Positions 4,842-27,006 of a stretch of 40,255 bases of DNA are shown one piece after another. This DNA comes from Desulfovibrionales bacterium. Its GTDB lineage: Bacteria > Desulfobacterota > Desulfovibrionia > Desulfovibrionales > Desulfovibrionaceae. The notes below the pieces were generated by a model, which was not told where the DNA came from, searched no databases, and saw nothing but the letters and a program-made list of their open reading frames with translations. Both the position numbers and the translations under genes were made by a program. Numbering within the stretch: position 1 is the stretch's first letter; every line of letters starts with the position of its first letter. Location of the stretch: the NCBI GenBank assembly GCA_030156255.1, contig JASGMV010000038.1, positions 1 to 40,255 on the forward strand. Direction: 5' to 3'.

Positions 4842-5273
4842 CTACCCGTCCTCGTTCACGCGCCGCATGGCGACTTGGGCGACCTGTTGCAGCAGACGGT
4901 TGATGCGCGCCTTGTCCTCTTCGGAAAAATCCTCCGTCAGGCTCGACGCCCACGAATTTTCGATTTCGCGGATTTTTCCGTAGAGGCGCTTCGCTTTCGG
5001 CGTCGGATAGAGCCGTGATGTCCTTTTGTCATCCTGGTTTTGTTTTTTTATGATGAAGCCGTTCTTCTCCAAAGACGAAAGAGCCCGTGTGACGTTGCTT
5101 TTGTTGATGTGAACGGTTTTGGCCAGCATGTCCTGAGAGATTCCCTCCTCCTGGCAGATATGGAGGATGAACATGTGCTGGCTGCTGTTGAGCCCGAGCG
5201 GCTTGAAGCGCTTATCAAGGTAAATTTTCGAAAAACGGTCTGCTATGGATATCCATTTGTACAGCCTGTTCAT
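4842..5273 (-). CDS. MarR-family transcriptional regulator
   Basis: About 143 residues with the MarR winged-helix fold: helix-turn-helix around ISQDMLAKTVHINKSNVTRAL, then the wing KKQNQDDKRTSRLYPTPKA with the conserved D-x-R. Start at 5273 is preferred over 5279 because AGGG ends directly against the upstream ATG but is six bases from this one. It is divergent from the MFS exporter gene at 5500, the usual arrangement for a MarR repressor that controls its neighbour and itself. The palindrome at 5370-5383 is a candidate binding site. The ligand is unknown. Confidence 0.9.
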   Translation of the reverse strand: MNRLYKWISIADRFSKIYLDKRFKPLGLNSSQHMFILHICQEEGISQDMLAKTVHINKSNVTRALSSLEKNGFIIKKQNQDDKRTSRLYPTPKAKRLYGKIREIENSWASSLTEDFSEEDKARINRLLQQVAQVAMRRVNEDG

Positions 5274-5499: not shown

Positions 5500-6885
5500 A
5501 TGATGAAAACGTATCGCGCCTCTTCTTCTTTGTTGGTTTTGATTTCCGTGAGCATCGCCCAGTTCATGGCGCCGCTGATGCTTTCCTCCGTCGGCGTGGC
5601 GCTGCCGAGCCTCGGCCGCGACCTGCACGCCACGGCGATGCAGCTTGGACTGGTCGAGCAGCTGTACGTGGTCTCCCTGGCCATGGGCATGCTGGCTTTC
5701 GGCCGCTATGGCGACATCGTGGGCCAGATCAAGGTGTTCGTCCCGGGGCTGGCGGTCTTCACGGTTTTTTCCTGCTCGCTCGGGCTGGCCCAATCAGTGG
5801 AGATGATTATGGTGCAGCGCTTTTGCCAGGGGATCGGCGCCTGCATGATGTTGTCCGGGAGTTTCGCTCTGGTGGCCATGGCGTTTCCCCAGGAAGTCCG
5901 GGGCCGCATGATCGGGATCGTTTCCGCGTTCACCTACGCCGGGCTTTCGTCCGGGCCGGTTATCGGCGGTTATATCACCGACCATTTCGGCTGGCGCCAC
6001 GTCTTTTTGTTGAGCGCGCCTCTCGGCCTTTTGGCGATTGTCTGCGGCCTTGCGGGAGCGCGCGGCGCCAAACCGGCGGCCGCCCAGGACAAAATGGACT
6101 GGCGGGGCGCTGCGTTTTACGCCGTGAGCGTAGCGTTGGTCATGCTGGGGGCGGCCCACGCCAAACAACTGCTTGTCGGCCCGCCCATGATCCTCGTCGG
6201 AGTCGCGGGACTGGCGCTGTTCCTCAAACTCCAGGGCAAGACCGAGTTCCCGCTGCTCGACGTCCGTTTGTTGAAGAACAACAAATACTTCACCTTCAGC
6301 AGCCTGGCCGCCATGGGCAACTACGCCGCGACCTTCGGCGTGACCTTTCTGATGAGCCTGTACTTGCAGTACGTGAAGGGTATGTCGCCGCACGAGGCCG
6401 GAATGCTTCTGATCGTGCAGCCGGCCATGCAGATTATCGTAGCGCCCATCAGCGGCAGGCTCGCGGATAAATTCCGCCCGGGGATTCTGGCGACGGCGGG
6501 CATGCTCGCCAGCTTCGTCGGGCTGATGGCGGCCGCCTTGACCGTCGGCGCGGATACGCCGCTGGCCCTGCTGGTTTCCGAACTGGCGGTCATCGGCGTG
6601 GGCTTCGGCGTTTTCATTTCGCCGAACTCCACGGCGATCATGGGCAGCGTGTCCCGGCAGCAGTTCGGTTTGGCTTCCGGCATGATCGCAACCATGCGCA
6701 CCCTGGGCATGGCCGTGAGCATGACCACCATCACGCTGATCATCTCGTTCATGATGGGCGAGGCGACGGTCACGGCGCGAACGTTGCCCTTTTTCCTGCA
6801 CAGCATGCGGCTGGCCTTGGCGGTCTCGGCCGTGTTTTCCTGCGTGGGCGTCTTGCTCTCCTTGAGGCGCGGCAAGGGCGTTTGA
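5500..6885 (+). CDS. MFS drug:proton antiporter, DHA2 (14-TMS) type
   Basis: 461 residues with about 14 hydrophobic segments over the full length. The motif-A-like loop GRYGDIVGQIKVF follows helix 2, the motif-C-like antiporter segment GPVIGGYITDHFGWRHVF is around residues 154-171, and LADKF occurs at the matching loop of the second half. These are features of DHA2 exporters of the EmrB/QacA kind, which expel toxic compounds using the proton gradient. The start is ATG 5500 (or 5503), after AGGA at 5492-5495; the longer frame to 5455 has no ribosome-binding site. It is divergent from marR, suggesting repression relieved by a toxic ligand. No membrane-fusion partner (EmrA) is adjacent. Substrate unknown. 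Confidence 0.88.
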   Translation: MMKTYRASSSLLVLISVSIAQFMAPLMLSSVGVALPSLGRDLHATAMQLGLVEQLYVVSLAMGMLAFGRYGDIVGQIKVFVPGLAVFTVFSCSLGLAQSVEMIMVQRFCQGIGACMMLSGSFALVAMAFPQEVRGRMIGIVSAFTYAGLSSGPVIGGYITDHFGWRHVFLLSAPLGLLAIVCGLAGARGAKPAAAQDKMDWRGAAFYAVSVALVMLGAAHAKQLLVGPPMILVGVAGLALFLKLQGKTEFPLLDVRLLKNNKYFTFSSLAAMGNYAATFGVTFLMSLYLQYVKGMSPHEAGMLLIVQPAMQIIVAPISGRLADKFRPGILATAGMLASFVGLMAAALTVGADTPLALLVSELAVIGVGFGVFISPNSTAIMGSVSRQQFGLASGMIATMRTLGMAVSMTTITLIISFMMGEATVTARTLPFFLHSMRLALAVSAVFSCVGVLLSLRRGKGV

Positions 6886-13877: not shown

Positions 13878-14193
13878 AAATCATTTCCTCAAGATAGTCG
13901 TCGAACCGGAAGCGCAGTTCCGGAAGGGCTTTCATTCGGAGTCTGCGGCCCAACGCCGAGCGGAGATATCCCTTGGCCGCCTCCAGCCCCGCCTTTGCTT
14001 CGCTCTGGCGCTGCTGGTCCCCGGACATGGTGTAGAATATCTCCGCGATTTTGAGATCGCTGTTGAGCCGCGCTCCGCTGAGGGTGACCCAGGCCAGCCG
14101 GGGATCCTGGATTTCGTTCTCCAGCACCTCCGCCAGCTCCCGTCGGATTTCCTCGGCCAGACGCACGCAACGCCGTGATTCGCTTCGTTTCAC
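13834..14193 (-). CDS. rbfA: Ribosome-binding factor A
   Basis: 119 residues. The KH-like RbfA fold is recognisable in the run from IRRELAEVLENEIQDPR through VTLSGARLNSDLKIAEIFYT to LRSALGRRLRMKALPELRF. It assists maturation of the 16S rRNA 5' end in 30S assembly, especially in the cold. The start is a GTG at 14193 with AAGGAG six bases upstream. The 3' end overlaps the nrnA start by 44 bases, so the two are probably translationally coupled. Confidence 0.94.
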   Translation of the reverse strand: MKRSESRRCVRLAEEIRRELAEVLENEIQDPRLAWVTLSGARLNSDLKIAEIFYTMSGDQQRQSEAKAGLEAAKGYLRSALGRRLRMKALPELRFRFDDYLEEMIYGQPGFHDSGTDQD

Positions 14194-14218
14194 CTGTCGC
14201 TCCTTGGGCCGTGCGGCG

Positions 14219-14527
14219 TCACCACGGCGCAGCCTCCTCGGTGTCCGAGAAGACTTCCGTGGAGACGTGGACCACCTCCGCGGGCGAGATGGCCTCGATC
14301 ATGGCCTGCACCTTCGACAGTCGGCTGTCCACCTTGCTGGTCTGGTTGGCGACGGTGACGATTCCCAGCACCAACCGTTCCTTGTTGTCCATCGCCTCCA
14401 CCTCCGCGACGGCCACGTTGAATTTGTTGGCCACCTTCTGCTTGAGGCTGGAGCAGACTTTGCGCTTCCCCTTGAGGGAGTCGTTGCCGTGGAGCCGAAA
14501 CTCCACGCGCAGCAATCCGATGATCAT
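14219..14527 (-). CDS. DUF503 (YlxP-like) protein
   Basis: 102 residues, a typical length. The sequence begins MIIGLLRVEFRLHGNDSLKGKR, with the HGNDSLKGKRK segment and the later F-N-V-A-V-A-E strand conserved in DUF503. Members sit between infB and rbfA in many bacteria, as here, which suggests a role in translation or ribosome assembly, but the function is not settled. It is 25 bases from rbfA and 38 from infB. Confidence 0.9.
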   Translation of the reverse strand: MIIGLLRVEFRLHGNDSLKGKRKVCSSLKQKVANKFNVAVAEVEAMDNKERLVLGIVTVANQTSKVDSRLSKVQAMIEAISPAEVVHVSTEVFSDTEEAAPW

Positions 14528-14565
14528 AATCGCGCCCTGCGGGGATAATGTTAACGAGCGGACGC

Positions 14566-17490
14566 CTAGTCAAGGGTCTGGGCGACCTCCTTGTGCTCGA
14601 AGGCTTCGATGACGTCTCCCGTCTTGATGTCGTTGAAGTTCTGCAGGCCCACGCCGCACTCGTATCCCTTGACCACTTCCTTGGCGTCGTCCTTGAAACG
14701 CTTGAGGGAGTCGATGGCGCCGGTGTACAGCACCACGCCGTCGCGCAGCAGGCGCACGGGCGCGTTGCGGGTCAATTTGCCGTCGGTCACGAAACAGCCG
14801 GCCACGGTGCCGACCTTGGGCACGCTGAAGGTGTCGCGGACTTCCGCCTGGCCCAGGTAGACCTCCTCGATGAGCGGGGAGAGCATGCCGGACATGGCGT
14901 CCTTGATCTCGCTGACCAGCTTGTAGATGACGTCGTAGAAGCGGACTTCCACGTTTTCTTCGTCGGCCAGTTCCTTGACCTTGAGGGTCGGGCGCACGTT
15001 GAAGCCGATGATGATGGCTTCCGAGGCCGAGGCCAGCAGGATGTCGGACTCGGTGATGGCGCCGGCCCCGCCGTGGATGATCTCCACCCGGACGGCGTCG
15101 GTGCTGAGTTTGACCAGCGCTTCCTGGATGGCCTCAAGCGAGCCCTGCACGTCGGCCTTCAGCACCAGGTTGAGGACCTTGGCCTCTTCCTCGGGCTTGG
15201 AGGCCAGGAAGGACTCCAGGGTGACCTTGGACTTGCCGGCCAGATCTTTTTCGCGCTGCTTGAGGCGGCGGGTCTCGGCGATGCGGCGGGCGACCTTGTC
15301 GTCCTCGACCACCACGAACTCGTCGCCGGCCTCGGGGATGCCGTCGAAGCCCTGGACCTCCACCGGAATGGAGGGGCCGGCCTTCTCGATCTTGGCGCCC
15401 TGGTCGTCGAACATGGAGCGGACCCGGCCGTGGTACAGGCCGCAGACAAAGGACTGTCCCACCTCCAAGGAGCCTTCCTGGATGAGCACCGTGCCCACGG
15501 GGCCGCGGCCCTTGTCCAGTTTGGCCTCCACGATGTGGCCTCTGGCCAGCTTGTTGGGGTTGGCCTTGAGCTCCAGCACTTCGGCCTGCAGCAGGATGAG
15601 TTCGAGCAGTTCGTCGATGCCCTGGCGCTGCTTGGCCGAGACGTAGGCGAAGATGGTTTCGCCGCCCCAGTCTTCGGGCGTCAGGCCGCGTTCGGCCAGC
15701 TCGCGTTTGACCCGGTCGGGGTTGGCGTCTTCCTTGTCGATCTTGTTCACGGCCACCAGCAGGGGCACATTGGCGGCGCGGGCGTGGTTGATGGCTTCCT
15801 TGGTCTGCTCCATGACGCCGTCGTCCGCCGCCACCACCAGAACCACCAGGTCCGTGACCTGGGCGCCGCGGGCGCGCATGGTGGTGAAGGCCTCGTGGCC
15901 CGGCGTGTCCAGGAAGACGATTTCCCCCCGTGCGGTCTGGACGTGGTAGGCGCCGATGTGCTGGGTGATGCCGCCCGCTTCGCCGGCCGTGATGTTGGTC
16001 GAGCGGATGGCGTCCAGCAGAGAGGTCTTGCCGTGGTCGACGTGGCCCATGATGGTCACCACGGGCGGACGGGGCAAGAGCTGGTCCGGGCTGTCCTCTT
16101 CCTTGGGCAGCAGGAAATTCTCTTCGGTGAAGGCCACGTTTTCGACTTCGTAGCCGAACTCCGAGGAAACCAGGGTGGCGGTGTCCAGATCCAGCGACTG
16201 GTTGATCGTGGCCATGACGCCCATGGAGAACAGGGTCTTGATGATTTCCTGCGCTTTGACGCCCATCTGGTGGGCCAAGTCCGAGAGCCGCACCGTGTCT
16301 TCGATGCGGATTTTCCGCTTGGCGGCCTTGATGGGCTGCGTGGTCGCCTGGGCGACCTCCTGCTCATCCTGGTAGCCGCCGCGGCCTTTTTTGCGCTTGC
16401 CGCCGCGGCTGCGCATGGGCCGTTCCTGCGGTTCGGACTTGCGTTTACCGCGACGATCCGCCTGGTCCTGCTGCTCGTTGCGAGGAAATTCCACGACGCG
16501 GCGATCTTTTCTGCGCTTCTTGCCGCGCCCGTCGTCGTCGGCGGGCGCCGGTCCCCCGTTGTTCTCTGCGGCGGGGGCGTGCAGGCGAAGCTGGCGGCCA
16601 GGCCGGCGGGCCTCGGAAGGAGCCGGTCGGCGGGCTTCGGGCGCGCTTGGCTGGCGAGGCTCGGACGGCGCCGGCGCTTCCGGCTTGTGGATGACCCGGA
16701 CCTGCGGCTGGCTGTCGTGCTCGGGCCGTTTGCGCTTCTTCTTTTTGGGGCGCTCTTCGGCGTCCGCGGCCGGAGCGGCCGCTTTTTCTGGCTCGGCTGC
16801 AGGCGCCGCTTCTTCGGTCTTCGCAACAGGCGGCTCTTTGTCCGGAGATTTCGCGTCGGCTGAATCTTCGGGCGGGCGGACGGGCTCAGCGGCTTCCGGC
16901 TCAGCCATAACTTTTTTCTCCACAGCGGGCTCTGGGGGTGTTGCTTGCGGTTGCTCGGAGACGGAGGGCTCGGATTCGGCCTGCGCTTCGGGCGCGGACG
17001 CCTCCACAGCGGGCTCCTCCGGGGCTTCCGGCGCCTCGGCTTGCGTTTCGGCGTCGGGCTCAGGCTCCTGGCTCGGGGTGCTGATGATGCGCGCGGCGCG
17101 TTCCTCTTTCGCGGGGGGCTCGGGGGATTTGGGGGCCTCTTCCGGCGACTGCTCGGGTTCGGGGGCCGCAGCTTCCTCCGGCTCCTCGACGGACGCTTCC
17201 GGTTCCTGGAGCGTCTCCTGAGCCTCCTCGGCCTCTTCGGCTTTGCGCTCCTTTCTGCGCCTTGAACCGCGGCGTCGGACAATGACTCCCGGCTGGACTT
17301 CCTTGCGGACCACGTCCGTTTGGGACTGGGCCTGGGACTGGGCCTCGCGCACCTGCTGGGCTTCCTCTTCCGAGAGGCCGCTCATGTGGCTTTTGACCTG
17401 AATGCCGAGCTCTCGACAGGACTGGATGATGTCCTTGTTCGTGAGCCCCAACTCGGCGGCCAGGTCTCTAACCCGAAGATTTGCGCTCAT
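14566..17490 (-). CDS. infB: Translation initiation factor IF-2
   Basis: 974 residues, long for the family. There is an IF2 N-terminal domain at about residues 1-52 and a low-complexity Pro/Glu/Ala-rich linker at about 60-380. A second IF2_N domain (about 395-445) precedes the GTPase domain with G1 GHVDHGKT at about 481, then DTPGHEAF and NKIDK, followed by the EF-Tu-like and C-terminal fMet-tRNA-binding domains. It brings initiator tRNA to the 30S subunit. The first codons overlap ylxR by 23 bases. The size excess lies wholly in the acidic then basic linker, which is expected to be disordered. Alternative internal starts giving shorter forms, as in E. coli, cannot be judged here. Confidence 0.97.
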
Positions 17491-17731
17491 GCACTCTCCC
17501 CCTGCTTGTTTTCCGAAAAGCCTTGTAACCCGCCATCCGCTCTCTGCAGTCCGGTCGACTGCAGCAGTACCAGCCCCGCCCGGCGGCGGTTTGGCGAGGA
17601 TCCGGCGTCAACGTCCAGGCGTCGGCCTCGGCGTCCAGCCGGCGTACGTGCCGTAATAATTCTTTCTTGGGCAACCGGCGGCGGCAGATGACGCACGTGC
17701 GCACCGGCCCCGGCGCTTCCGCATCGGCCAT
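17468..17731 (-). CDS. ylxR: YlxR (DUF448) nucleic-acid-binding protein
   Basis: 87 residues. It begins with the family signature RTCVICRRRLPKKELLRHVR and has GRGWYCCSRPDCRERM in the second half; the cysteines may bind a metal or hold the fold. YlxR proteins sit between nusA and infB in many bacteria and are reported to bind RNA or act as regulators. It starts 3 bases after nusA and overlaps the infB start by 23 bases, so all three are coupled. Confidence 0.9.
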   Translation of the reverse strand: MADAEAPGPVRTCVICRRRLPKKELLRHVRRLDAEADAWTLTPDPRQTAAGRGWYCCSRPDCRERMAGYKAFRKTSRGRVHERKSSG

Positions 17732-17734
17732 GAA

Positions 17735-19144
17735 TCATGCGTCTCCCTCTGAGGGCTCTTGTTCCGCCGTCTCGTCCGTGGATTGCTCCGCCGCATCCGT
17801 CTGCGGTTCGGCCTCGGCCGACGCTTCCCGTTCGGACGTCTCTTCGCCGGCGCTCGCCGTCTCGTCTCCTGCTCCCTCGTCGCTCTCGGCGGGCCGCTCC
17901 TCGGCGGCGGGCCGGCTCGGGGTCAGCAGGTTGATGGCGGCGCGCAGGTCGGAAATCTTGGACGGCGTCATGCCCGTAACATGCATCAGTTCCTCGGGCG
18001 AGGCCTGGTTCAGGTCGTCCAGGCTCTCGAAGCCGGCGGCCAGGAAGGCGCTCATGGAGAGCTCCGCCACGCTGGCCACTTGCTCCAGCCCCTGGCGGGA
18101 AGCGTTCGCTTCGCCGTAGCGCGACTCCGTGAGGACGTCGACTTTCCAACCCAGCAGCTTGGAGGCCAATTTGACGTTTTGGCCCTTGCGGCCGATGGCC
18201 GGCGTGAGCTGGTCGTCCGGAACCACCACTTCCAGGGTGTTTTCGTCGTCGTCCACGGTGATGCGGTTGATGCGGGCGGGAGACAGGGCGTTCTGGGCGT
18301 AGACCGCGATGTCCGGCGACCAGACCACGATGTCGATGCGCTCGCCGCGCAGCTCCTGGACGATGTTCTGGATGCGCGAGCCGCGGATGCCCACGCAGGC
18401 GCCCACGGGGTCCACTTCCCGATCCTTGGAGTAGACCGCGACCTTGGCCCGCAGGCCGGGATCGCGCGCCACGCCCATGATGGCCACCGTGCCGTCGGAA
18501 ACCTCGGGCACCTCCCGCTTGAACAGCGAGACCATGTAGTCGGGGTGGGACCGGGAGACCACCACCTGCGGGCCGCGGGATTCCTTGTGCACGCCGATGA
18601 TGTACGCCTGAATGCGGTCTCCGCGTTTGTAGCGCTCGCGGGGAATCTGCTCTTCCTTGGGCAGCACGGCTTCGGTGCGGCCGAGGTTGATGATCCACCC
18701 CGAGCGGTCCCGGCGCTGGATGATGCCCGAAACGATTTCGCCCACGCGGTCCTTGTATTCCTCGTAAATGATTTCCTGCTCCGCGTCGCGCATGCGCTGG
18801 ATGATGACCTGCTTGGCCGACTGGGCCGCGATGCGCCCCAAGTCCTCGATGTCGATGCGGAAGCCCATTTCGTCGTCGAGCTGGACGCTGGGGTCGTGCT
18901 TGCGAGCCTCCTCCAGGGTGATCTCGCTGACCGTGTCCTCCACGTCTTCGACCACGATCTTGAACTGGTAGACCTCGATGTCGCCGGTTTCCTCGTTGAA
19001 ATTGATTTCGACGTCCATCTCGTCGCCGTACTTGCGATGGACGGAGGAACGCACCGCCTCTTCCAGGGTGTCGATGAGCAGATCCCGGTCGATGCCCTTG
19101 TCCTTGCTGATCTGATCGATGGCCTTTTTCAGCTCCGCGCCCAT
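17735..19144 (-). CDS. nusA: Transcription termination/antitermination factor NusA
   Basis: 469 residues. The N-terminal RNA polymerase-binding domain (1-125) is followed by S1 (about 132-200) and two KH domains (about 205-345, with VGACVGIRGSRIQNIVQEL and PAIGRKGQNVKLASKL). A helix-hairpin-helix-like segment (about 365-415) precedes an acidic Ala/Glu/Ser tail of about 50 residues. NusA controls pausing, termination and antitermination. In E. coli it regulates its own operon, and the terminator at 19695-19726 upstream of rimP is a possible target. It lies 55 bases after rimP. Confidence 0.97.
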   Translation of the reverse strand: MGAELKKAIDQISKDKGIDRDLLIDTLEEAVRSSVHRKYGDEMDVEINFNEETGDIEVYQFKIVVEDVEDTVSEITLEEARKHDPSVQLDDEMGFRIDIEDLGRIAAQSAKQVIIQRMRDAEQEIIYEEYKDRVGEIVSGIIQRRDRSGWIINLGRTEAVLPKEEQIPRERYKRGDRIQAYIIGVHKESRGPQVVVSRSHPDYMVSLFKREVPEVSDGTVAIMGVARDPGLRAKVAVYSKDREVDPVGACVGIRGSRIQNIVQELRGERIDIVVWSPDIAVYAQNALSPARINRITVDDDENTLEVVVPDDQLTPAIGRKGQNVKLASKLLGWKVDVLTESRYGEANASRQGLEQVASVAELSMSAFLAAGFESLDDLNQASPEELMHVTGMTPSKISDLRAAINLLTPSRPAAEERPAESDEGAGDETASAGEETSEREASAEAEPQTDAAEQSTDETAEQEPSEGDA

Positions 19145-19199
19145 GGTGCTCTGCCTTGTTTACGCCGGTCCGACAGGCTCGTTCCGGCTGGTTTGGTCA

Positions 19200-19661
19200 T
19201 CAAGCTTTCTGCTCGAAATCGTGGACGAGCCGGGCCCGTTTCACATCGCGCCAGTGAAGCTCGACGGCTTCTTCGTCCACAAGAAGGGTGAAGCGGTCGT
19301 CCGCAACGACCGAGAGTTCGCCTTTGAAATTTTTTCGGCCCTCGAGGGGCTCCTCCAACTGGACCCGGACGTCGCGGCCTACGTAGGGCTGCATTTGCTC
19401 CAGGTGAAAAAAGCGCCGTTCGAATCCCGGGGAGGATACTTCCAATATATAAGAGCCCGGAACCGCGTCCTCGACCTCCAGGGCCAATCCGGCGTGCCGG
19501 CTGGCCTTGGCGCACTCCCCGACGCTCACTCCGCCGGGTTTCTCCACGTACAGGCGCAGCACCTTTCGACGGCCGGGATTTTCGATTTCAAGCCCCCAGA
19601 CGCTCAGGCCCAAAGCTTCCACGGCGGGCCGCAGCACATCCAGGATCAGTTGTTCGTTCAC
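19200..19661 (-). CDS. rimP: Ribosome maturation factor RimP
   Basis: 153 residues from a GTG at 19661, matching the usual 150-160. The family pattern LRPAVEALGLSVWGLEIEN, then VEKPGGVSVGEC and LEVSSPGFERRFFHLEQ, is clear. It is required for 30S assembly. An open frame continues upstream through the terminator and the tRNA-Gly gene to 19886, but that part cannot be protein. The ribosome-binding site is modest (GAGG about nine bases upstream). It is the first protein gene of the nusA-infB operon. Confidence 0.92.
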   Translation of the reverse strand: MNEQLILDVLRPAVEALGLSVWGLEIENPGRRKVLRLYVEKPGGVSVGECAKASRHAGLALEVEDAVPGSYILEVSSPGFERRFFHLEQMQPYVGRDVRVQLEEPLEGRKNFKGELSVVADDRFTLLVDEEAVELHWRDVKRARLVHDFEQKA

Positions 19662-19694
19662 GCCGGGCGCCCTCTTGGATCGTTGCACGGTCCA

Positions 19695-19726
19695 TAAACA
19701 AAAAGGTGGACCACAGACGGTCCACC
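19695..19726 (-). terminator. Intrinsic terminator between tRNA-Gly and rimP
   Basis: On the minus strand, an 8-bp perfect stem (GGTGGACC and GGTCCACC, 6-base loop, 19705-19726) is followed by TTTTTGTTT. It lies 43 bases after the tRNA 3' end and 34 bases before the rimP start. It should end the tRNA transcript; the rimP operon must then be read by partial readthrough, antitermination or a promoter in the very short gap. Confidence 0.85.
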
Positions 19727-19768
19727 CCACGCTGCATTCGCCGCGCCGAGCCGTGGCTCGTTGAGGCT

Positions 19769-19844
19769 TGGAGCGGGTGACGGGGGTCGAACCCGCGACA
19801 CCGAGCTTGGGAAGCTCGTACTCTACCAACTGAGCTACACCCGC
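19769..19844 (-). tRNA. tRNA-Gly (anticodon CCC)
   Basis: A 76-base cloverleaf on the minus strand including an encoded CCA (19769-19771). The acceptor stem GCGGGTG pairs with CACCCGC. The D-arm has AGCTCAGTTGGTAGAGT, and the anticodon stem CGAGC/GCTCG encloses the loop TTCCCAA, so the anticodon is CCC (complement at 19809-19811), reading GGG codons. The T-arm has GGTTCGA. It lies upstream of rimP, where E. coli has the metY tRNA gene. Confidence 0.97.
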
Positions 19845-19857
19845 CCGCAAGAAGAAT

Positions 19858-19886
19858 CCCATAGCCGTGGCGAAAGGGGATGTCAA
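19858..19886 (-). promoter_or_regulatory. Sigma-70 promoter for tRNA-Gly (and rimP operon)
   Basis: Minus-strand TTGACA (19881-19886), a 17-base spacer and TATGGG (19858-19863) end 13 bases upstream of the mature tRNA 5' base. Confidence 0.65.
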
Positions 19887-19980
19887 GGATTCCTTTCTCC
19901 GACCGAGGCCTTCGCAAGCGTTTCTCCCGTCGCCCCGCTCGGCGACGCAACCGGCCGCGGGGAAGTGCGCTTTTAAAAAA

Positions 19981-19992
19981 GAAGGCGCCTTC
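19981..19992. promoter_or_regulatory. GAAGGCGCCTTC palindrome, candidate operator (upstream copy)
   Basis: A perfect 12-bp palindrome six bases upstream of the -35 at 19998. Its first nine to ten bases recur at 20038, past the -10. Its placement on both sides of one promoter suggests binding by the MarR encoded downstream (inference). Confidence 0.5.
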
Positions 19993-19997
19993 CTATC

Positions 19998-20025
19998 TTG
20001 ACATCGTACGGGGAGGTTTTATCGT
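19998..20025 (+). promoter_or_regulatory. Sigma-70 promoter for the Cys/RG-rich gene and marR
   Basis: A perfect -35 TTGACA (19998-20003), a 16-base spacer and TATCGT (20020-20025, four of six). Transcription would start near 20032, about 50 bases before the ATG at 20082. An A/T-rich stretch (CTTTTAAAAAA) precedes the upstream palindrome. Confidence 0.6.
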
Positions 20026-20037
20026 CTACCAAGAATC

Positions 20038-20049
20038 GAAGGCGCCTAG
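20038..20049. promoter_or_regulatory. GAAGGCGCCTAG, candidate operator (downstream copy)
   Basis: It repeats the GAAGGCGCCT of 19981-19990, 57 bases apart, with an 8-bp palindromic core AGGCGCCT. It lies just after the expected transcription start. Confidence 0.45.
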
Positions 20050-20081
20050 CTATTTGAACGTTTAACGCAAAGGAGTTTGAA

Positions 20082-20414
20082 ATGTTTGGATGCATGAGAA
20101 GAGAACATCGTGAGGGCGGCCGGTGCGGCCGAAACAACCGCCGCGACCGCTCCCATGGCCGAGGTCATGGCCGCGGCTTGCGGGAAGGCGTTGGCGCGAG
20201 GGGCCGCAGCGGGCGGCGAAGCGCCAGGGAAGGTCGGGGCGAAGTCCGTCCCCTTTTCGGGCGTCTCGGGGGCGAACCTGATTCGCCGTCGGCCGCGGCG
20301 CCGGAGGCGCTTGTCTGCCCGTTGTGCGACAACCACTGTCCGCTGGGCGAGCCGAGCTGCCCCAAAGGCGAGGCCTACGCCCAGTCCATGAACGCCGGCA
20401 GGGGAGGCGAGTGA
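20082..20414 (+). CDS. Small Arg/Gly-rich protein with C-terminal cysteine cluster
   Basis: 110 residues, function unknown. The first 65 residues are rich in Arg, Gly and His with repeated GR steps and little order. The C-terminal part carries CPLCDNHCPLGEPSC, a CxxCx3Cx6C arrangement suited to binding zinc or another metal, followed by a short polar end. The gene is credible: AAAGGAG lies at good distance before the ATG, a promoter with flanking dyads lies upstream, and its stop overlaps the marR start as TGATG. The MarR has a matching Arg/Gly-rich tail, so the two products may work together, for instance sensing metal or redox state. This is inference; no named family is claimed. Confidence 0.75.
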   Translation: MFGCMRREHREGGRCGRNNRRDRSHGRGHGRGLREGVGARGRSGRRSAREGRGEVRPLFGRLGGEPDSPSAAAPEALVCPLCDNHCPLGEPSCPKGEAYAQSMNAGRGGE

Positions 20415-20992
20415 TGACCGGCGAGAAGCGCTTGCAAACGGCGAGCGACGAAGAACTGGCGACGCTGCTTCATCAGGCCGCGAGGTTGATGGGCCGCGGC
20501 GGGCGCAGGCGCGGCCGAGGCCGCCGCACGCAGCGCCGTTTGTTGTCGATCATCGTGGAGCGAGGCCCCATCCTGCAAAGCGAACTGTTGGAGCTGCTGG
20601 ACGTTCGTTCGTCTTCCTTGAGCGAAGTTCTCGGCAAGCTGGAGCGCAACGGATGGATCGTCCGGGAGCGCAACGAAAACGATAAACGGGGCTTCGTCGT
20701 CTCGGCCACGGAGCAGGGGAAATCCCTTTGCTCCGACCCGGAGGAGGCCCGCGAAAGCGCGGACGGCCTGTTCGCCTGTCTCGACGACGAGGAGCGCGGG
20801 CGGCTCGCCGAGGCTTTGGAGAAGCTCGTTTCCTCCTTGAAGGACGACCCGGTGCGCGAGGGGGGCTTCTTCGGGCGGCGCGAACACGGTCGGATGCGCC
20901 GCGACAATGGTCCGGACCGGGAGGACGAGCGCCGGTCCGAAGGTTTCGGGCGCGGCCGTCGCGGCCGGGACCGCCATGGCCGAGGTGAATAA
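20414..20992 (+). CDS. MarR-family regulator with Arg/Gly-rich tail
   Basis: 192 residues. After a basic stretch (GRGGRRRGRGRRTQRRLL) comes a MarR-type winged helix: helix-turn-helix in LQSELLELLDVRSSSLSEVLGKL, then the wing RERNENDKRGFVVSATEQGK. A dimerisation helix region follows, then about 40 low-complexity Arg/Gly/Asp residues at the C-terminus. The start is ATG 20414, overlapping the preceding stop and with GGGGAGG six bases upstream; the longer frame from 20324 is rejected. It probably regulates its own two-gene operon through the GGCGCC dyads. The basic N- and C-terminal stretches are not part of ordinary MarR proteins and may bind nucleic acid. Confidence 0.88.
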   Translation: MTGEKRLQTASDEELATLLHQAARLMGRGGRRRGRGRRTQRRLLSIIVERGPILQSELLELLDVRSSSLSEVLGKLERNGWIVRERNENDKRGFVVSATEQGKSLCSDPEEARESADGLFACLDDEERGRLAEALEKLVSSLKDDPVREGGFFGRREHGRMRRDNGPDREDERRSEGFGRGRRGRDRHGRGE

Positions 20993-21220
20993 GCGCGCCC
21001 CCCGGCGCAGCAGATTTTTCCTTCCTCCTCCGTTGTCCGCGGACGTTCGCGCCGCGGACGCCGTCCAAAGGGCGGGATTTCGGAGCGCAAAACCGGCTGC
21101 TTTCCGCTGCGGAGCGCTCCGATTCCTCGTTTCGCGGGCGAGTCTCCGCCTCCCGACAACGAGTTGACGGACTCATCCCTTTCCCCTTCGAAAGTTTTCG
21201 TTCTCCAAGGCTGACGGCGA

Positions 21221-21238
21221 TTGGCCCATCGATTGCAT
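21221..21238 (+). promoter_or_regulatory. Sigma-54 promoter of the flgF operon
   Basis: TTGGCCCATCGATTGCAT has GG (21223-21224) and GC (21235-21236) exactly ten bases apart, with TTGCA at -12, close to the TGGCAC-N5-TTGCW consensus. Transcription would start near 21248, just before the flgF ribosome-binding site at 21251. Sigma-54 control of rod/ring/hook genes is common in polar flagellates. Confidence 0.75.
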
Positions 21239-21264
21239 ATCGTTTGACCAGAAGGAGAGCAAAC

Positions 21265-22038
21265 ATGCAAGACGCCATGTACAGCGCTATGTTCGGCGCC
21301 ATGTCCAACGAAATCAGGGTCGATCTCATCGCCAACAATATGGCGAACGTGAACACCACCGGTTATAAAAAGGATCAGGTGACGTTTCACGACACCTTCC
21401 TCAGATTCGCCCATGATTCCGTGGTGGACACCAAGACCTATCTGCGCGGGGAGAATGTGTTTCCCCGGCCGGACATCCTGGCCAAGCCCCGATTGTCCGG
21501 CCAGTATGTGGACATGTCGCAGGGAAGCCTCGCTCCCACGGGGAATCCCCTGGACCTTGCCATCTCCGGAGAGGGCTTTTTCCAGGTTCGGACGCCGGAC
21601 GGCGATTATCTGACGCGCAATGGAAGTTTCGTGGTCTCTTCGGACGGAACGCTGGTCACAGAGCAGGGATATCCGGTCCTCGGCGAGGGCGGCCCCATCG
21701 TGATTCCGCAGGGCGCCCAGGTCCAGATCGACCACGACGGCGTCATCCGCCAGGGAGGGGCCGAGGTCGGCCAGATCGGCGTCTACACGGTGGACGATCC
21801 GACCCAGTTGGAGAAGATCGGCTCCAACCTGTTCGGAGTCGGGGGGGCCGCCTTGGCGCCCGTTCCGGCTGAAAATGCGGTGGTCCAGCAGGGGTTTTTG
21901 GAGAAGTCCAACGTGGAGGTGGTTTCCGAAATGGTCTCTCTGATCGAAAGCCAGCGAGGCTACGAGGCCTACTCCAAGGTCATCAAAGGCAGCAGCGAAC
22001 TCAGCGAGCAACTGCTCCAGAAGGTTGGCAGGGTCTAG
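21265..22038 (+). CDS. flgF: Flagellar proximal rod protein FlgF
   Basis: 257 residues. It has the N-terminal flagellar rod/hook signature ANNMANVNTTGYKKD and the C-terminal SNVEVVSEMVSLIESQRGYEAYSKVI helix that pack together in the axial structure. First position before flgG and its length identify it as FlgF rather than a second FlgG. The start is ATG 21265 with GAAGGAG seven bases upstream; an earlier in-frame codon at 21244 would precede the predicted transcription start. It is the first gene behind the sigma-54 promoter. Exported by the flagellar type III system, so no signal peptide. Confidence 0.93.
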   Translation: MQDAMYSAMFGAMSNEIRVDLIANNMANVNTTGYKKDQVTFHDTFLRFAHDSVVDTKTYLRGENVFPRPDILAKPRLSGQYVDMSQGSLAPTGNPLDLAISGEGFFQVRTPDGDYLTRNGSFVVSSDGTLVTEQGYPVLGEGGPIVIPQGAQVQIDHDGVIRQGGAEVGQIGVYTVDDPTQLEKIGSNLFGVGGAALAPVPAENAVVQQGFLEKSNVEVVSEMVSLIESQRGYEAYSKVIKGSSELSEQLLQKVGRV

Positions 22039-22056
22039 CGAAGGAGGAATACCGAT

Positions 22057-22839
22057 ATGATGCGTTCGTTATGGACTGCGGCCACGGGCATGGTGGCCCA
22101 GCAGATGAACATCGACGTGAGGGCCAACAACCTCGCCAACGTCAACACCTACGGATTCAAGAAGAGCCGCGCCGAGTTCGAGGACCTCATGTACGAGACC
22201 ATGCGCATCGCCGGCACCGTGACCGCAGGCGGCAATCAGCTGCCCACGGGCATGCAGGTCGGCATGGGCGTCAAACCGGTGACGGTCCACAAGTTCTTCA
22301 CGCAGGGCGATTTCGAGAACACCGGCAACACCCTGGACATCGCCATCGAGGGCGACGGCTTTTTCCAGGTGGATATGAACGGCACGGACGCCTACACCCG
22401 CGCCGGCGCCTTCAGCCTGGACTCCGACGGCCGCATCGTCAACGCCAACGGTTATGCGCTGCAGCCGGAGTTCCTCGTCCCTCCCGAGGCCGTGAACGTG
22501 GTCATCGCGGAAGACGGGACCATTTCCGCCGTGGACAGTGAAGGGAACGAACTGGCCGCCGGGAACATCACGACCTACACGTTCATCAACCCGGCCGGCC
22601 TCAACGCCGTGGGCCGCAACGTCTACGTCCAGACCGACGCCTCGGGCGATCCCGTCGAGGGCACGCCCGGCGAGGACAATTTCGGCACGCTGTCCCAGGG
22701 GTTTCTGGAGAGCTCCAACGTCGAGCTCGTGGACGAAATGGTCGGGCTCATCACCGGACAGCGGGCCTACGAAATGAACTCCAAGGCCATCTCCACTTCG
22801 GACAGCATGTTGCAGACGGCCATCAACCTCAAGCGTTAA
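22057..22839 (+). CDS. flgG: Flagellar distal rod protein FlgG
   Basis: 260 residues, the canonical size. It begins MMRSLWTAATGMVAQQMN, with RANNLANVNTYGFKKSRAEF, and ends with SNVELVDEMVGLITGQRAYEMNSKAI and a short LKR terminus, all diagnostic of FlgG. It forms the distal rod that crosses the periplasm. AAGGAGG lies nine bases upstream; 18 bases separate it from flgF. Confidence 0.96.
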   Translation: MMRSLWTAATGMVAQQMNIDVRANNLANVNTYGFKKSRAEFEDLMYETMRIAGTVTAGGNQLPTGMQVGMGVKPVTVHKFFTQGDFENTGNTLDIAIEGDGFFQVDMNGTDAYTRAGAFSLDSDGRIVNANGYALQPEFLVPPEAVNVVIAEDGTISAVDSEGNELAAGNITTYTFINPAGLNAVGRNVYVQTDASGDPVEGTPGEDNFGTLSQGFLESSNVELVDEMVGLITGQRAYEMNSKAISTSDSMLQTAINLKR

Positions 22840-22855
22840 CACCAGGGAGAGCGCC

Positions 22856-23857
22856 ATGTCTTTGAGAACCTCCGCCCGGAAAGCACTGGTTGGGTTCGCA
22901 GCCTGCCTGATTCTTCTTGCGGGTGCGGTCGGGACCGCCACGGGCCTCTGGAATCCGGAATGGAGGCTCGTTGTGCGCAGCGCCGCTTGCGTCAAGGGCG
23001 ACGTGGTTCGGCTCGGCGACGTGGCCGTGGTCCACGGAGAGATGGACCCGGACGAGTGGAGCAAGCTGTCCGAAGCGGTCCTGTGGCAGGCGCCAGGGCG
23101 CGGAGAAAAGCCCCAGGTGGTGGACCGGAACAACCTCAAGCGGTTGTTCATCCGCATCCTGGGCGATGTGGGTTATTTTTGCGTGTATCCGGACCGGCTG
23201 ACCATTCAGCGCGGGGGCGACGTCGTGGACCAGATCGGCCTGCGCAAGCTCATTGTCGATTATCTGACGCCGCGGATTCAGGCGTTGCAGGAGTTCCGGG
23301 GCGACGTGGAGCTGACCGAGTTCAGCATGCCGGAGTACGTGTTTCTCGACGACCGGTTCGACAAGGTGGAGATCGATACGGCGGGCCGCATCAAGCCCGG
23401 CCGGGTGCCTTTGCGCATCAACGTGGTCAATCCGAACGGGGACAAGCTCCGGCAGGTGACGGCCAGCGTTTTCGTCAACGTCTACAGGCCGACGCCGGTG
23501 GCCGTGCGCCCCCTGAACCGCGGGGACCAGCTGACGCCGGACCTCGTGACCTACAAGCGCAAGAACCTGGCCTATCTGGCCGACTCCGTGTGGGACGGCA
23601 AAGGCGGGCCGTGGCGTCTGACCCGGTCGATCGGGACGTCGCAAGTGATCTATGCGTCGAGCATCGAGTCCAAGCCGAAGATCTCGTCCGGCGACAAGAT
23701 CCTTTTGAAGTACCTTGGCAAGCATATTCAGTTGAGCGTACCGGCCAAAGCGCTGGCCGACGGGCGCATCGGGGACGTCATTTCCGTGCAGAACCTGCAA
23801 AGCAACCGGGAGGTTCTGGCGCGTGTCCAGGACTCCGAGACCGTGGTCACCCCGTAG
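22856..23857 (+). CDS. flgA: Flagellar P-ring assembly chaperone FlgA
   Basis: 333 residues, longer than the roughly 220 of enterobacterial FlgA. An N-terminal hydrophobic segment (residues 9-29, AALVGFAACL-type) acts as signal or anchor for the periplasm. The C-terminal two-thirds hold the SAF domain (about 210-270, VRPLNRGDQLTPDLV) and the ChapFlgA end, KHIQLSVPAKALADGRIGDVISVQNLQSNR. It helps FlgI assemble into the P ring. The extra N-terminal domain (about 35-130) is of the kind found in longer FlgA proteins. It lies 16 bases after flgG. Confidence 0.9.
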   Translation: MSLRTSARKALVGFAACLILLAGAVGTATGLWNPEWRLVVRSAACVKGDVVRLGDVAVVHGEMDPDEWSKLSEAVLWQAPGRGEKPQVVDRNNLKRLFIRILGDVGYFCVYPDRLTIQRGGDVVDQIGLRKLIVDYLTPRIQALQEFRGDVELTEFSMPEYVFLDDRFDKVEIDTAGRIKPGRVPLRINVVNPNGDKLRQVTASVFVNVYRPTPVAVRPLNRGDQLTPDLVTYKRKNLAYLADSVWDGKGGPWRLTRSIGTSQVIYASSIESKPKISSGDKILLKYLGKHIQLSVPAKALADGRIGDVISVQNLQSNREVLARVQDSETVVTP

Positions 23858-23879
23858 GGCCTGAAGCAAGGAGAGCGTC

Positions 23880-24584
23880 ATGAGAACCTTAACAATCATT
23901 TTTCTGGCCCTGGTTTCCGCGTTGGCCGCGACGTGCTGCATGCCACCGTCCCAGGCCCAGACGCCCACCCCCATCATGTCGCCGCCGCCTCCCACGGCGC
24001 CGGACCCCATGGAGAATCCCGGCTCCTTGTACAGCCCCGCCCAGGCCGACTACCTGTATGCGGACAACCGGGCCCGCCGGGTGGGCGACATCGTGCTGGT
24101 CAACGTTTCCGAGGTCACGAACGGCGAGCATAAGGCCAACACCAAGGCCGAACGCAATACGGAGACCAACTTCGGAGTGAACGCTTATGGGGTCAACGGG
24201 GTGCTTGGCGGCGTGTTCAACTCTTTCGGCCTGAATAAGCTGGCCGGCACGTCCATCGACTCCGGCGCCAAGAACAACTTCAAGAGCACGGCTGAGACCA
24301 AGCGCGAGTCCACCTTGACCGCCGCGGTGGCCGTGCGCATCGTCAAGGTGCTGCCGGGCGACGTCTTCCAGGTGGAGGGCGCCCGGGAAGTGCGCATCAA
24401 CGATGAAACGGAAATTCTGGTGGTGCGCGGGCTGCTTCGCAAGCGCGACATCGGGCCGGACAACACCGTGGACTCCGGCTATCTGGCCAACGCGCGCATC
24501 GAAGTCTACGGGCAGGGCATTCTGGCCGACAAGCAGAAGCCCGGCTGGCTGTCCCGCATCCTGGACAATATGTGGCCTTTCTAA
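23880..24584 (+). CDS. flgH: Flagellar L-ring protein FlgH
   Basis: 234 residues. It has a signal peptide (about 1-19, TIIFLALVSALAA), then a Pro-rich stretch and the FlgH core: GSLYSPAQADYLYADNRARRVGDIVLVNV and the closing NARIEVYGQGILADKQKPGWLSRILD. It forms the outer-membrane ring around the rod. FlgH is normally a lipoprotein; here Cys19 and Cys20 follow LAAT, a poor lipobox because Thr or Cys is at the -1 site, so lipidation is uncertain. It lies 22 bases after flgA. Confidence 0.94.
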   Translation: MRTLTIIFLALVSALAATCCMPPSQAQTPTPIMSPPPPTAPDPMENPGSLYSPAQADYLYADNRARRVGDIVLVNVSEVTNGEHKANTKAERNTETNFGVNAYGVNGVLGGVFNSFGLNKLAGTSIDSGAKNNFKSTAETKRESTLTAAVAVRIVKVLPGDVFQVEGAREVRINDETEILVVRGLLRKRDIGPDNTVDSGYLANARIEVYGQGILADKQKPGWLSRILDNMWPF

Positions 24585-24648
24585 ACCTGATGGGAGCCTG
24601 GCGGCCCGCAAAGCTTGATCGCATGAGAACACCACGGAGTTGAACGCC

Positions 24649-25794
24649 ATGACCGCAACCGTAAACAACACACGGACCAGCTTGAGGAGGCTTGCAGGCC
24701 TTTTCGCCGCGCTGGCGCTGATCCTGCCTTTGCAGCTCGCCGCGCCGGACGGCGCCTCGGCCGCCCGCCTCAAGGACATCGCCTCCTTCAGCGGACTGCG
24801 CACCAACGGACTGGTGGGCTATGGACTGGTGGTCGGCCTGTCCGGGACCGGGGACAAGACGAACCCGGTCTACACCACCCAGGCCATGGAAAACATGCTG
24901 GAGAACATGGGCGTTCGCGTGGACAAGAGCGAACTCAAGCCCAAGAACGTGGCCGCGGTCATGGTCACGGCCAAGATGCCGGTGACCAGCCGTCCCGGCT
25001 CCAGGCTGGACGTGACGGTTTCAAGCATCGGCGACGCAACGAGTCTGCTTGGCGGCGTGTTGCTGCTCACTCCCATGAAGGGCGTGGACGGCTCCGTGTA
25101 CGCCCTGGCGCAGGGCTCCCTGACCGTGGGCGGTTTTTCCGAGGGCGGGCAGGCGGCCACCGTATCCAAGAACGTCGTCACCGTGGGCATCGTCCCCAAC
25201 GGCGCCTCGGTGGAGCGGGCGGTGCCCTTCCAGTACAACCAGCAGGATAGGCTTTTGGTCAATATGGACATGGCCGACTTCGGAACGGCCATGCAGGTCG
25301 TGAACCGTCTGAACTCGGTCATCGGCGGCTCGTACGCCAAGGCCTTGGACGCCTCCACCATCGAAATCGACGTGCCGGACCGGTTCATGGGCAATCTGGT
25401 GCCGCTCATGGCCTCCCTGGAGAACGTCGAGATCGATCCGGACGCGCCCGCCAAGGTGGTGGTGGACGAGAAGACCGGCACCGTGGTGGTCGGCCAGAAC
25501 GTGCGGCTGTCCAAGGTGGCCGTGGCCCACGGCAACCTCCAGGTGGTCGTCGCCGAAACCGCCGACGTCAGCCAGCCGGCGCCCTTCGCCCAGGTGGGCG
25601 AGACCGTGGCCACGCCGCAGACCGACATCAACGTCCTCGAGGAGAACCGCCGCCTGATGCTCATGGAGGGCGCGACCCTGCAGGAGCTGGTTGACGGACT
25701 CAACTCCATCGGCGCCACGCCGCGCGACCTCATCTCCATTCTGAGAACCCTCAAGGCCGCAGGCGCTTTGCACGCGGAACTGGAGGTCATCTAA
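24649..25794 (+). CDS. flgI: Flagellar P-ring protein FlgI
   Basis: 381 residues. A Sec signal peptide (about 15-40, ending ASA) leads to the mature N-terminus [26 protein letters not shown], the conserved FlgI beginning. It ends in the typical [40 protein letters not shown] region (given here in part from 25670 on). The ATG at 24649 is chosen over an upstream TTG at 24640; CGGAG is nine bases away. It forms the P ring in the periplasm. Confidence 0.96.
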
Positions 25795-26430
25795 ATGTTG
25801 GAAACGGGATTAGACGCACAGGTCGCGGCCCAGTCCGCCCAGCAGGACGATCTGATTCGATTCAAGATGCAGATGGACGGCCTCAAGCATCGCTTGGGCG
25901 TCGGCCGGAACAAGGAAAAAGAGCTGAAGGACGCCTGCGTCAAGTTCGAAGCGGTGTTCATCAACCAATTGTGGAGCGAGATGCGCAAGACCGTTCCCAA
26001 GGAAGGGTTTCTTCACAGCAAGATGGAGGACCAGTACCTGTCCATGTTCGACCAGCAGTTCTCGGAGCATCTGGCCGAGAACGGGGGGATCGGCTTGGCG
26101 GACATCTTGATGGATCAGTTGAAGAACCAGGTGGAGAACGCCGCCAACAGGACGCTTGGCGCGGACGATGAGAACCAGGCCGACGCGCAGCAAAGCGAAT
26201 TGAAGGAGTTGGCCCGGAATCAGTCCGGCGACGCCGCCGAGGTCTGGGAGCGGACGCGGGAGGAGGCGGACCCGGAAAAGGCCGACGCTGAAATCATGCA
26301 GCAGGTCGAGGAACTGGCCGAGCGCATCGTGCGCGAGGGAACGACCTCTGCTGCATCCTCGCGCCGCCAGGCCGTCCAAGGCTACACCCGGACCGAAGAG
26401 CTTGGCCGGCAAATTGCAAGAAACCGGTAG
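25795..26430 (+). CDS. flgJ: Rod-binding protein, FlgJ N-terminal type (no muramidase domain)
   Basis: 211 residues. The rod-binding domain is at about 42-110: LKDACVKFEAVFINQLWSEMRKTVP and the later DQQFSEHLAENGGIGLADILMDQL. The rest is a Glu/Gln-rich, probably coiled or disordered tail. The C-terminal glucosaminidase half of enterobacterial FlgJ is absent, so another enzyme must open peptidoglycan for the rod. The ATG follows the flgI stop with no gap; GGAGGT inside flgI serves as its ribosome-binding site, meaning tight coupling. Confidence 0.88.
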   Translation: MLETGLDAQVAAQSAQQDDLIRFKMQMDGLKHRLGVGRNKEKELKDACVKFEAVFINQLWSEMRKTVPKEGFLHSKMEDQYLSMFDQQFSEHLAENGGIGLADILMDQLKNQVENAANRTLGADDENQADAQQSELKELARNQSGDAAEVWERTREEADPEKADAEIMQQVEELAERIVREGTTSAASSRRQAVQGYTRTEELGRQIARNR

Positions 26431-26459
26431 AAAACCTCGGATTGGAGAGAGGAAAATTA

Positions 26460-26483
26460 ATGGAGTTACGTGTTACTCGTTGA
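26460..26483 (+). other. Seven-codon mini-ORF upstream of flgN
   Basis: ATG GAG TTA CGT GTT ACT CGT TGA follows GGAGAGAGGAAAATTA, a better ribosome-binding site than that of flgN itself. Its stop is one base before an in-frame flgN ATG (26485). It may be a leader peptide that feeds ribosomes to flgN, or a remnant of an older start. Confidence 0.35.
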
Positions 26484-26529
26484 AATGGCGGATAAAAAGC
26501 TTCAAGCCTCCTCAAAGAGGGCGACAACC

Positions 26530-27006
26530 ATGATACGCTTTATCAAGGAAAATCTTGCCAGGCAGGTGAAGGGATTCAAGCTTCTGCAGCTTTTGCTGGA
26601 AGAAGAATTTTCCCGGCTCACCCAACGCGATCCGCAGGGCGTGTCCCGCATCGAGATGCCCATTCAGGAATTGCTGCGGCAGATCGGCGCCGAGCGAATT
26701 TCGCTCAAAAGCCTGCTCGCCGGCGCTTACCCCGAGACCCGGCTTCGGGATTTCCCCGCAGCTCTGGGCGGAGACGAGGGGCTGGCCGCCGGCGAAACGC
26801 TGCAAGCCATTAAGAAGGCGGAGCAGCAGTGCGCCCGCCAGGCCGCCAAGAATCAGCGCCTGGCCGCGGCTCTGTCCAAGCAAAGCCAGAGCTTGCTCGA
26901 ATTTCTGCACAACAGCGTGCGGCCCAAGAATAACGACGCCTACTCGGCGAAGGGCTGCTACGCAAAGGCTCCATCCCGTCCCTCGCTGTTGAGCGGGAGG
27001 CTGTAA
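26530..27006 (+). CDS. flgN: Flagellar export chaperone FlgN
   Basis: 158 residues, mainly helical, beginning MIRFIKENLARQVKGFKLLQLLLEEEFS and continuing through IEMPIQELLRQIGAERISLK, the FlgN-type helical bundle. It keeps FlgK and FlgL soluble for export, and the placement just before flgK supports this. The start at 26530 has GAGGG eight bases upstream; 26485 (15 codons earlier) is an alternative coupled to the mini-ORF. Its TAA overlaps the flgK ATG (TAATG), so FlgK synthesis is coupled to its chaperone. Confidence 0.85.
   Translation: MIRFIKENLARQVKGFKLLQLLLEEEFSRLTQRDPQGVSRIEMPIQELLRQIGAERISLKSLLAGAYPETRLRDFPAALGGDEGLAAGETLQAIKKAEQQCARQAAKNQRLAAALSKQSQSLLEFLHNSVRPKNNDAYSAKGCYAKAPSRPSLLSGRL

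Follow-up and report, generated by a model that had tools for sequence, protein, structure and literature searches.

A candidate autoregulated module made of a MarR-family regulator and a small four-cysteine protein

The pairing of the small cysteine protein P0001 with the MarR-family regulator P0002 is not a matter of chance. Comparison across genomes supports the joint occurrence of the two genes, their head-to-tail coupling and a single predicted promoter lying between two palindromes. In our preferred reading, held tentatively and at somewhat less than even chances, they would form an autoregulated two-gene module, at times with a third gene, whose Cys4 protein would act as an SmtA-like ligand-binding output.

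The gene pair and its relatives

The window, i.e., the whole stretch of DNA analyzed (40,255 nucleotides), is the entire contig G000:C59 of a 3.8 Mb draft genome. To the left of the pair lie infB, ylxR, nusA and rimP on the minus strand, together with tRNA-Gly, and to the right two FlgE/F/G-type rod genes, a flgA-type gene and flgH; P0001 and P0002, both on the plus strand, are thus located between the infB-side genes and the flagellar genes. P0001 (20082..20414, plus strand), delimited as an ORF and by alignment, is a protein of 110 amino acids consisting of a basic Gly/Arg-rich arm and a CPLCDNHCPLGEPSCPKGEAY motif, in which the cysteines C79-x2-C82-x3-C86-x6-C93 fall in conserved alignment columns (20316..20360, plus strand). 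P0002 (20414..20992, plus strand) is a MarR-family regulator of 192 amino acids, assigned through Pfam PF01047, alignment and a low-confidence fold, with an Arg/Gly-rich segment and an R/G-rich C-terminal tail covering approximately residues 147-192 (20852..20989, plus strand), which was delimited from sequence, composition and the low-confidence model. The two ORFs have one base in common, within GAGTGATGACC (TGATG). This overlap, the Cx2Cx3Cx6C cluster and the R/G-rich arms of both proteins had been described in a sequence-only reading of the same DNA; all are present, and their coordinates are exact. A second MarR-type sequence is encoded in the window at 4845-5168 (minus strand), with 28% identity to P0002 (E 6.5e-7).

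Gly, Arg and His account for 60% of residues 1-60 of P0001. This composition alone proves nothing, because 60-residue stretches equally rich in the three residues occur in 5 of the 163 mechanical ORFs of the GC-rich window, P0001 counted. P0001 matched no family of Pfam or NCBIfam at E<=1, and the curated metallothionein families of the two collections gave no match at the same threshold. The Cys motif matched no solved structure either (best E 0.41), and for this reason its chemistry is a guess.

The cysteines of the motif are nevertheless conserved, a point named by the sequence-only reading as one that would support it: counting from the first to the fourth, they are kept in 21, 21, 20 and 21 of 21 aligned small proteins, an alignment that excludes genome G150, where the frame shifts before the fourth Cys. 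The surrounding residues stay near C-P-x-C-x2-[HR]-C-P-[LI]-x2-P-x-C-x-K-G. The arm ahead of the motif is variable in sequence and ranges from 44 to 285 residues; it carries a net positive charge in each of the 23 members listed, and 14 of 21 small proteins start with MFG. Two members deserve separate mention. In G072 (L066:4886-5098) a Tyr takes the place of the third motif Cys, the sole loss of a motif Cys among the 21 aligned members. In G150 (L122, minus strand 5698-6546) the small frame shifts past the third Cys and continues into marR; the apparent fusion protein, of 282 amino acids, may reflect a frameshift, an error or a true fusion.

P0002 matches PF01047 with E 2.1e-13 and 50.4 bits (cut-off 24.6) over residues 38-92. 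Its first Arg/Gly stretch, GRGGRRRGRGRRTQ at residues 27-40, lies ahead of and extends into the Pfam-matched part, and the second is the tail starting around residue 147. Outside the MarR domain neither protein matched a Pfam family. Against NCBIfam P0002 stayed below every listed cut-off. Assignment to the AdcR/ZitR-type zinc MarRs (NF038251) was rejected at 14 bits vs. a cut-off of 175, as was assignment to the redox-responsive OhrR type, which has a conserved reactive cysteine: P0002 reaches 23.5 bits vs. a cut-off of 200 (NF052638), and no Cys is conserved among the paired MarRs, the best column holding it in 10 of 23 aligned sequences. The nearest PDB profile matches are general MarR proteins, namely MgrA, HosA, MarR and MepR. 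A single-chain, single-sequence model of P0002 shows a MarR-like order of helices and wing at low confidence (pLDDT 56), with no helix or strand listed past residue 143. In the aligned family, the last 45 residues of the MarR are net positive in 19 of 23 members, and two His on the N-terminal side of the winged helix are conserved, one in 20 and the other in 21 of the 23, with Arg at both places in P0002. His-based metal binding as a common family function is weakened by these Arg residues at the conserved His positions, and by the nearly His-free arms of several members.

A MarR-core profile was run against 247 genomes of the order and reached at least 127 bits in 22 of them, the next group beginning from 93. 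With the same settings, a profile built on the C-terminal Cys motif gave 21 matches, all inside these 22 MarR-subfamily genomes, which corresponds to 21 of 22 vs. none of the other 225 (Fisher p about 1.5e-29, kinship ignored). Of the 21 genomes that have the motif, 20 carry the two genes side by side and in the same order, and the remaining one, G079, has them on separate contigs. Neither of the two outcomes that would have refuted the sequence-only reading, an absence of small-protein homologues beside related marR genes or a lack of conservation of the cysteines, was thus obtained. Over 22 linked pairs, G150 excluded, the intergenic gap is -11 to +19 nt, some of the start codons having been chosen by hand. 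G162 (1.41 Mb; L123:5561-6200) has kept both operators described below, lacks the small gene and carries a TAG within the MarR frame; between operator and MarR lies just a 15-codon frame, perhaps a remnant of the small gene. Six loci were opened among the weaker matches of an earlier search, and a pair, with a partly divergent motif, was found only in G072.

The 23 paired-type MarRs group in a single clade (99/96) when 61 MarR cores are placed in a tree. Their sister group, with weaker support (91/77), consists of five His/Gly-tailed MarRs of genus g50. In total, pair, motif, gap and operator recur in at least ten genera and three families, in fetched regions of 43 to 68% GC. Outside the order, G294 holds the whole unit, with a spacing of 59 nt between its two AAGGCGCCTT sites, and G491 a divergent one (CSLC..HCSL) with AAGGTACCTT sites 57 nt apart and a MarR outside the clade. 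A related MarR occurs in 4 of the 41 genomes of the latter order: beside G491 itself, G639 has the full unit, G638 (absent from the tree) has the sites and a Cys motif out of frame with the likely start, and G661 has neither sites nor motif. In the order of G294, 7 of 194 genomes scored above threshold and only G294 exceeded 72 bits; five of the seven other matches were opened and contained neither sites nor motif. Such a patchy spread fits transfer or repeated loss.

Genome searches for the small motif were run within the phylum. Twelve of 17 phylum-wide profile matches were weak (E 3e-4 to 0.009), and pattern scanning of six of these 12 loci found no motif gene beside a MarR. A contig search with the window MarR alone as query gave one distant MarR. 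Carriage by phages and plasmids was considered and set aside: 27 stretches of viral contigs fit the pattern and none was confirmed by profile, a viral contig with a looser DNA-pattern match had no such gene among its ORFs from 3300 on, and two opened loci of distant plasmid MarRs (58 records) had no ORF with the four-Cys spacing. The plasmid search with the small motif itself returned one weak match (E 3).

Promoter, paired palindromes and neighboring genes

Upstream of P0001 lies a sigma-70-like promoter, TTGACA-16-TATCGT (19998..20025, plus strand), found by a consensus scan that gave one match vs. 0.2 expected. Candidate operator 1, GAAGGCGCCTTCCTAT with the palindrome GAAGGCGCCTTC (19981..19996, plus strand), is located just 5′ of the -35 element, and candidate operator 2, GAAGGCGCCTAGCTAT with the palindrome GAAGGCGCCTAG (20038..20053, plus strand), is located 3′ of the -10 element and 57 nt from operator 1. 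Both came from a repeat search, the first being backed by its conserved aligned position and the second by its conserved spacing. These paired palindromes around the promoter (19981-20053) are absent from the sequence-only reading.

The paired layout was sought in 25 promoters, mostly with AAGGTACCTT. In 22 of the 25 promoters, 19 or all 20 letters of the best pair of sites agreed with the 10-mer, the maximum over 2500 base shuffles being 18; the P0001 promoter reaches 19 of 20 for both palindromes summed, and weak pairs were seen in G238 (15), G254 (16) and G152 (16). Spacing varies between 50 and 60 nt and is exactly 57 in 15 of 25 promoters, in a search that allowed start distances of 45-65 nt and resolved ties towards 57. 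A hexamer with 5 or 6 of the 6 TTGACA letters follows soon past site 1 in 24 of 25. The separated genes of G079 retain sites as well: both are found at the small gene, and the promoter of marR shows one exact AAGGCGCCTT together with what looks by eye like a decayed partner.

The presence of the operator words at these promoters is unsurprising, because the words were taken from them, and the informative part is their rarity elsewhere. The strict paired pattern matched 21 of the 247 genomes, 17 of them MarR-subfamily genomes with the match at the pair promoter (G162 included) and 4 others; it misses 5 of the 22 MarR genomes, and gives one extra match in the window genome (G000:C58:32121-32183). 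The single-site pattern AAGGYRCCTTNNTA was matched 31 times, in 17 of 23 genomes, and 28 of the 31 matches fall at pair promoters, some being one site matched on both strands; an off-promoter match in the window genome lies at G000:C74:454-467. It is possible that these two extra places in the window genome are further targets or chance matches. Exact AAGGTACCTT was found at 20 positions in 12 genomes, 14 of them at the pair promoter, vs. 138 occurrences of a reversed control word, which is a different word and a rough yardstick; AAGGTACCTT may be avoided outside the pair promoter. Three of the six off-target AAGGTACCTT places were opened, and they lie inside a 637-aa ORF, inside doubtful overlapping ORFs and between ORFs. 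At the level of strong, not degenerate, sites the MarR thus appears to control little beyond its own operon.

Neighboring genes were compared over 1289 ORFs of at least 80 amino acids from 28 loci, taking 1.5 to 8 kb per side (14000-27000 in the window). Only one gene occupies a constant position in two or more genera, namely a Fur-family gene (PF01475) directly 3′ of marR. It is present in G150 (L122:4316-5679, minus strand, including the gene that follows; gap 18 nt), G226 (L120 from 5280, minus strand; gap 19 nt), G158 (L138:6599-7048, plus strand; gap 117 nt) and, as detected by tblastn, G639 (L223:2104-2568, plus strand; gap 6 nt). In G150 a cation-diffusion-facilitator gene (cation-efflux, PF01545) overlaps the end of fur, and tblastn over 34 sequences detected this efflux gene in G150 alone. 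A tblastn search with two of the Fur proteins over 34 sequences found the Fur gene in these four only, with none beside the window pair. The Fur proteins stay below every equivalog cut-off of NCBIfam, so that iron, zinc, manganese and peroxide cannot be told apart. The remaining ORF clusters shared between genera either sit at differing positions, 1.4 to 7 kb away, or correspond to the pair or to frames overlapping it. Eight of nine neighbors given to Pfam found a match: two ABC transporter parts, a methyltransferase, YceG, serine-dehydratase alpha, Fe-ADH, MFS and an esterase-like protein. Among the 28 loci, there is no transporter or enzyme gene that different genera have in a matching position beside the pair.

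Judged from these gene neighborhoods, the metal context is real in a minority of loci and, as far as seen, absent from the others. The earlier proposal of a metal- or redox-responsive unit therefore stands in part: it gains some contextual support from the four loci in which marR is followed by a Fur gene and from the one with a cation-efflux gene, and it is weakened by a MarR with no conserved Cys and by arms with hardly any His in either protein of several members.

Matching arms, mechanism and alternatives

The matching Arg/Gly composition of the two proteins, which the sequence-only reading had singled out, turned out to be a modest trend across species that holds for Gly and His and is weaker for Arg. 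Over 21 pairs, the small-protein arm and the MarR tail correlate in Gly (rho 0.76) and His (0.68), kinship being uncorrected, and the partial rho on local GC is 0.68 and 0.61, respectively (n=21). When four near copies were taken out and two distant pairs brought in (n=19), both Gly and His gave 0.53 (p ~0.02 each). The Arg correlation is 0.36 (p 0.11, n=21) or 0.46 (p 0.049, n=19). Arg-rich and His-rich versions interchange in both proteins, in such a way that Gly richness is kept and metal ligands are not. Together with the adjacency in 20 of 21 genomes and the conserved cysteines, the covariation of the arms supports the earlier notion of a two-protein unit, and a putative two-protein sensor unit is plausible.

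In our preferred reading of an autoregulated module, a MarR dimer would sit on each palindrome and occlude the promoter, keeping the repressor and the small protein low. An inducing ligand or stress would free the MarR, upon which the small protein would rise. As the sole non-regulator gene in every complete pair, the small protein would be the output, and its Cys4 motif may bind that same ligand, which could be a transition metal ion or a thiol-reactive oxidant. The Gly/Arg/His-rich arms would perhaps help both proteins to meet each other or the same partner. Once the ligand is bound by the small protein, repression would return. Because the strong sites of the MarR are nearly confined to its own operon, the small protein is expected to be the main output and an effector, not only a co-sensor; because Cys is conserved in the small protein and not in the MarR, the small protein is favored as the chemically sensitive partner. 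The Fur and efflux neighbors favor metal or peroxide as the signal, and the module perhaps serves metal or oxidant handling. The preferred reading is weakened by the operator matches away from the pair promoter, by the five MarR genomes that escape the strict pattern, by the mixed character of the other neighbors and by the similar layout that G491 and G638 show with a MarR from a different branch.

The same cysteine contrast and the covarying arms can also be read as the marks of a protein that would serve the MarR as antirepressor or sensing subunit, in the manner of ArmR with MexR: its Cys motif would sense metal or oxidant, and it would dock by the matching arms and release or strengthen DNA binding. 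Tight gene coupling would suit an equimolar complex, and there is a precedent in ArmR, which binds MexR, a MarR-family repressor (PMC3290565). ArmR acts on a repressor of other genes, whereas the pair considered here would be a sensor without output if the MarR has hardly any target besides its own operon, unless the Fur gene of four loci is the output; the two genes are moreover unlinked in G079. On balance we regard this antirepressor role as possible and rather unlikely. The buffering role of the SmtB/SmtA kind and the MarR-binding role of the ArmR kind may, by analogy, also be held by the small protein both at once.

A further extension of the autoregulated module, which we find doubtful, is a closed loop in which the main target of the MarR would be its own operon, the two proteins would recognize each other via co-evolving arms, the small protein would be sensor and neutralizing cargo together, and Fur would be wired in in some species.

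Just as doubtful is that the MarR would be a repressor of the usual kind, responsive to drugs, phenols or oxidants, with more targets reached via degenerate operators, the small protein being one member of its regulon. Its family membership and the general MarR proteins among the nearest PDB profiles agree with such a role, as do the few extra sites, one of the three opened sitting between ORFs. The exact sites are concentrated at one promoter, though, and what recurs beside the pair is a regulator, Fur, in place of any transporter or enzyme gene.

We give still less credit to the idea that the arms would bind nucleic acid or another polyanion, or co-condense in an RGG-like manner, so that the small protein would concentrate the repressor at its operator. 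The net positive charge of all 23 small-protein arms and of 19 of 23 MarR tails speaks for it, as does the swap of His-rich and Arg-rich versions that spares Gly richness at the expense of metal ligands; the idea leaves the conserved Cys motif unexplained, and it finds no family match outside the MarR domain in either protein to lean on. Finally, that pairing and composition are a chance product of GC-rich DNA has next to nothing in its favor: a few other reading frames of the window are as R/G/H-rich, but the pairing is above chance because it is conserved in other genomes, and the co-occurrence of pair, motif, gap and operator over the genera, families and GC range given above refutes it.

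Relation to known systems

At the level of sequence, the regulator shares with MarR, MexR, OhrR and MgrA the winged helix (PF01047), the palindromes around its own promoter and an apparent autoregulation; it differs from the MarR family in its low-complexity Gly/Arg/His arms, in the tandem small Cys protein and in strong sites that are nearly confined to its own promoter. The five MarRs of genus g50 (G160, G159, G061, G174 and G167; L139-L143) have a comparable operator geometry around their own promoter, of the GGCACCTAA type, and they likewise carry long His/Gly-rich tails; these proteins are 291-320 amino acids in length, and their very long tails contain some Cys. In contrast to the paired MarRs, they form a separate clade (100/100), have RVQPPSLSELL where the paired MarRs have RSSSLSELL, and occur in genomes with no match to the small protein.

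Two described systems offer partial parallels. SmtB, an ArsR-type repressor, has a site at the promoter of the metallothionein SmtA (PMC8790569). As in that system, a repressor goes together with a small Cys-bearing protein, and a repressor site, here a candidate one, lies at the promoter of the small protein. The differences are the ArsR fold vs. the MarR fold and a divergon vs. a co-directional operon; the pair described here, likened to SmtB/SmtA from sequence alone, has four motif Cys and no metallothionein family match. In the second system the DNA binding of MexR is weakened when ArmR binds to it, and armR is located in another operon under NalC (PMC3290565). The small protein and the MarR-family repressor are the common elements, their interaction being a putative one in our case, and the differences are a single operon under its own MarR, the Cys motif and the matched arms. 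Among the matches listed from open-licence papers, we found no description of this pair. The regulator is thus known as a MarR and the small protein is without a family model, and together they would represent a module of autoregulated repressor and cargo with unusual arms.

MarR regulators are best known as controllers of pumps or detoxifying enzymes. The strong sites described here lead instead to one small protein without a known family, so that the inducing signal and the function of the protein can be sought together. The swapping of Arg-rich for His-rich arms, seen in both proteins, would offer a natural experiment on recognition by disordered arms, and the pair as a whole gives a testable role to a protein that has no Pfam or NCBIfam model.
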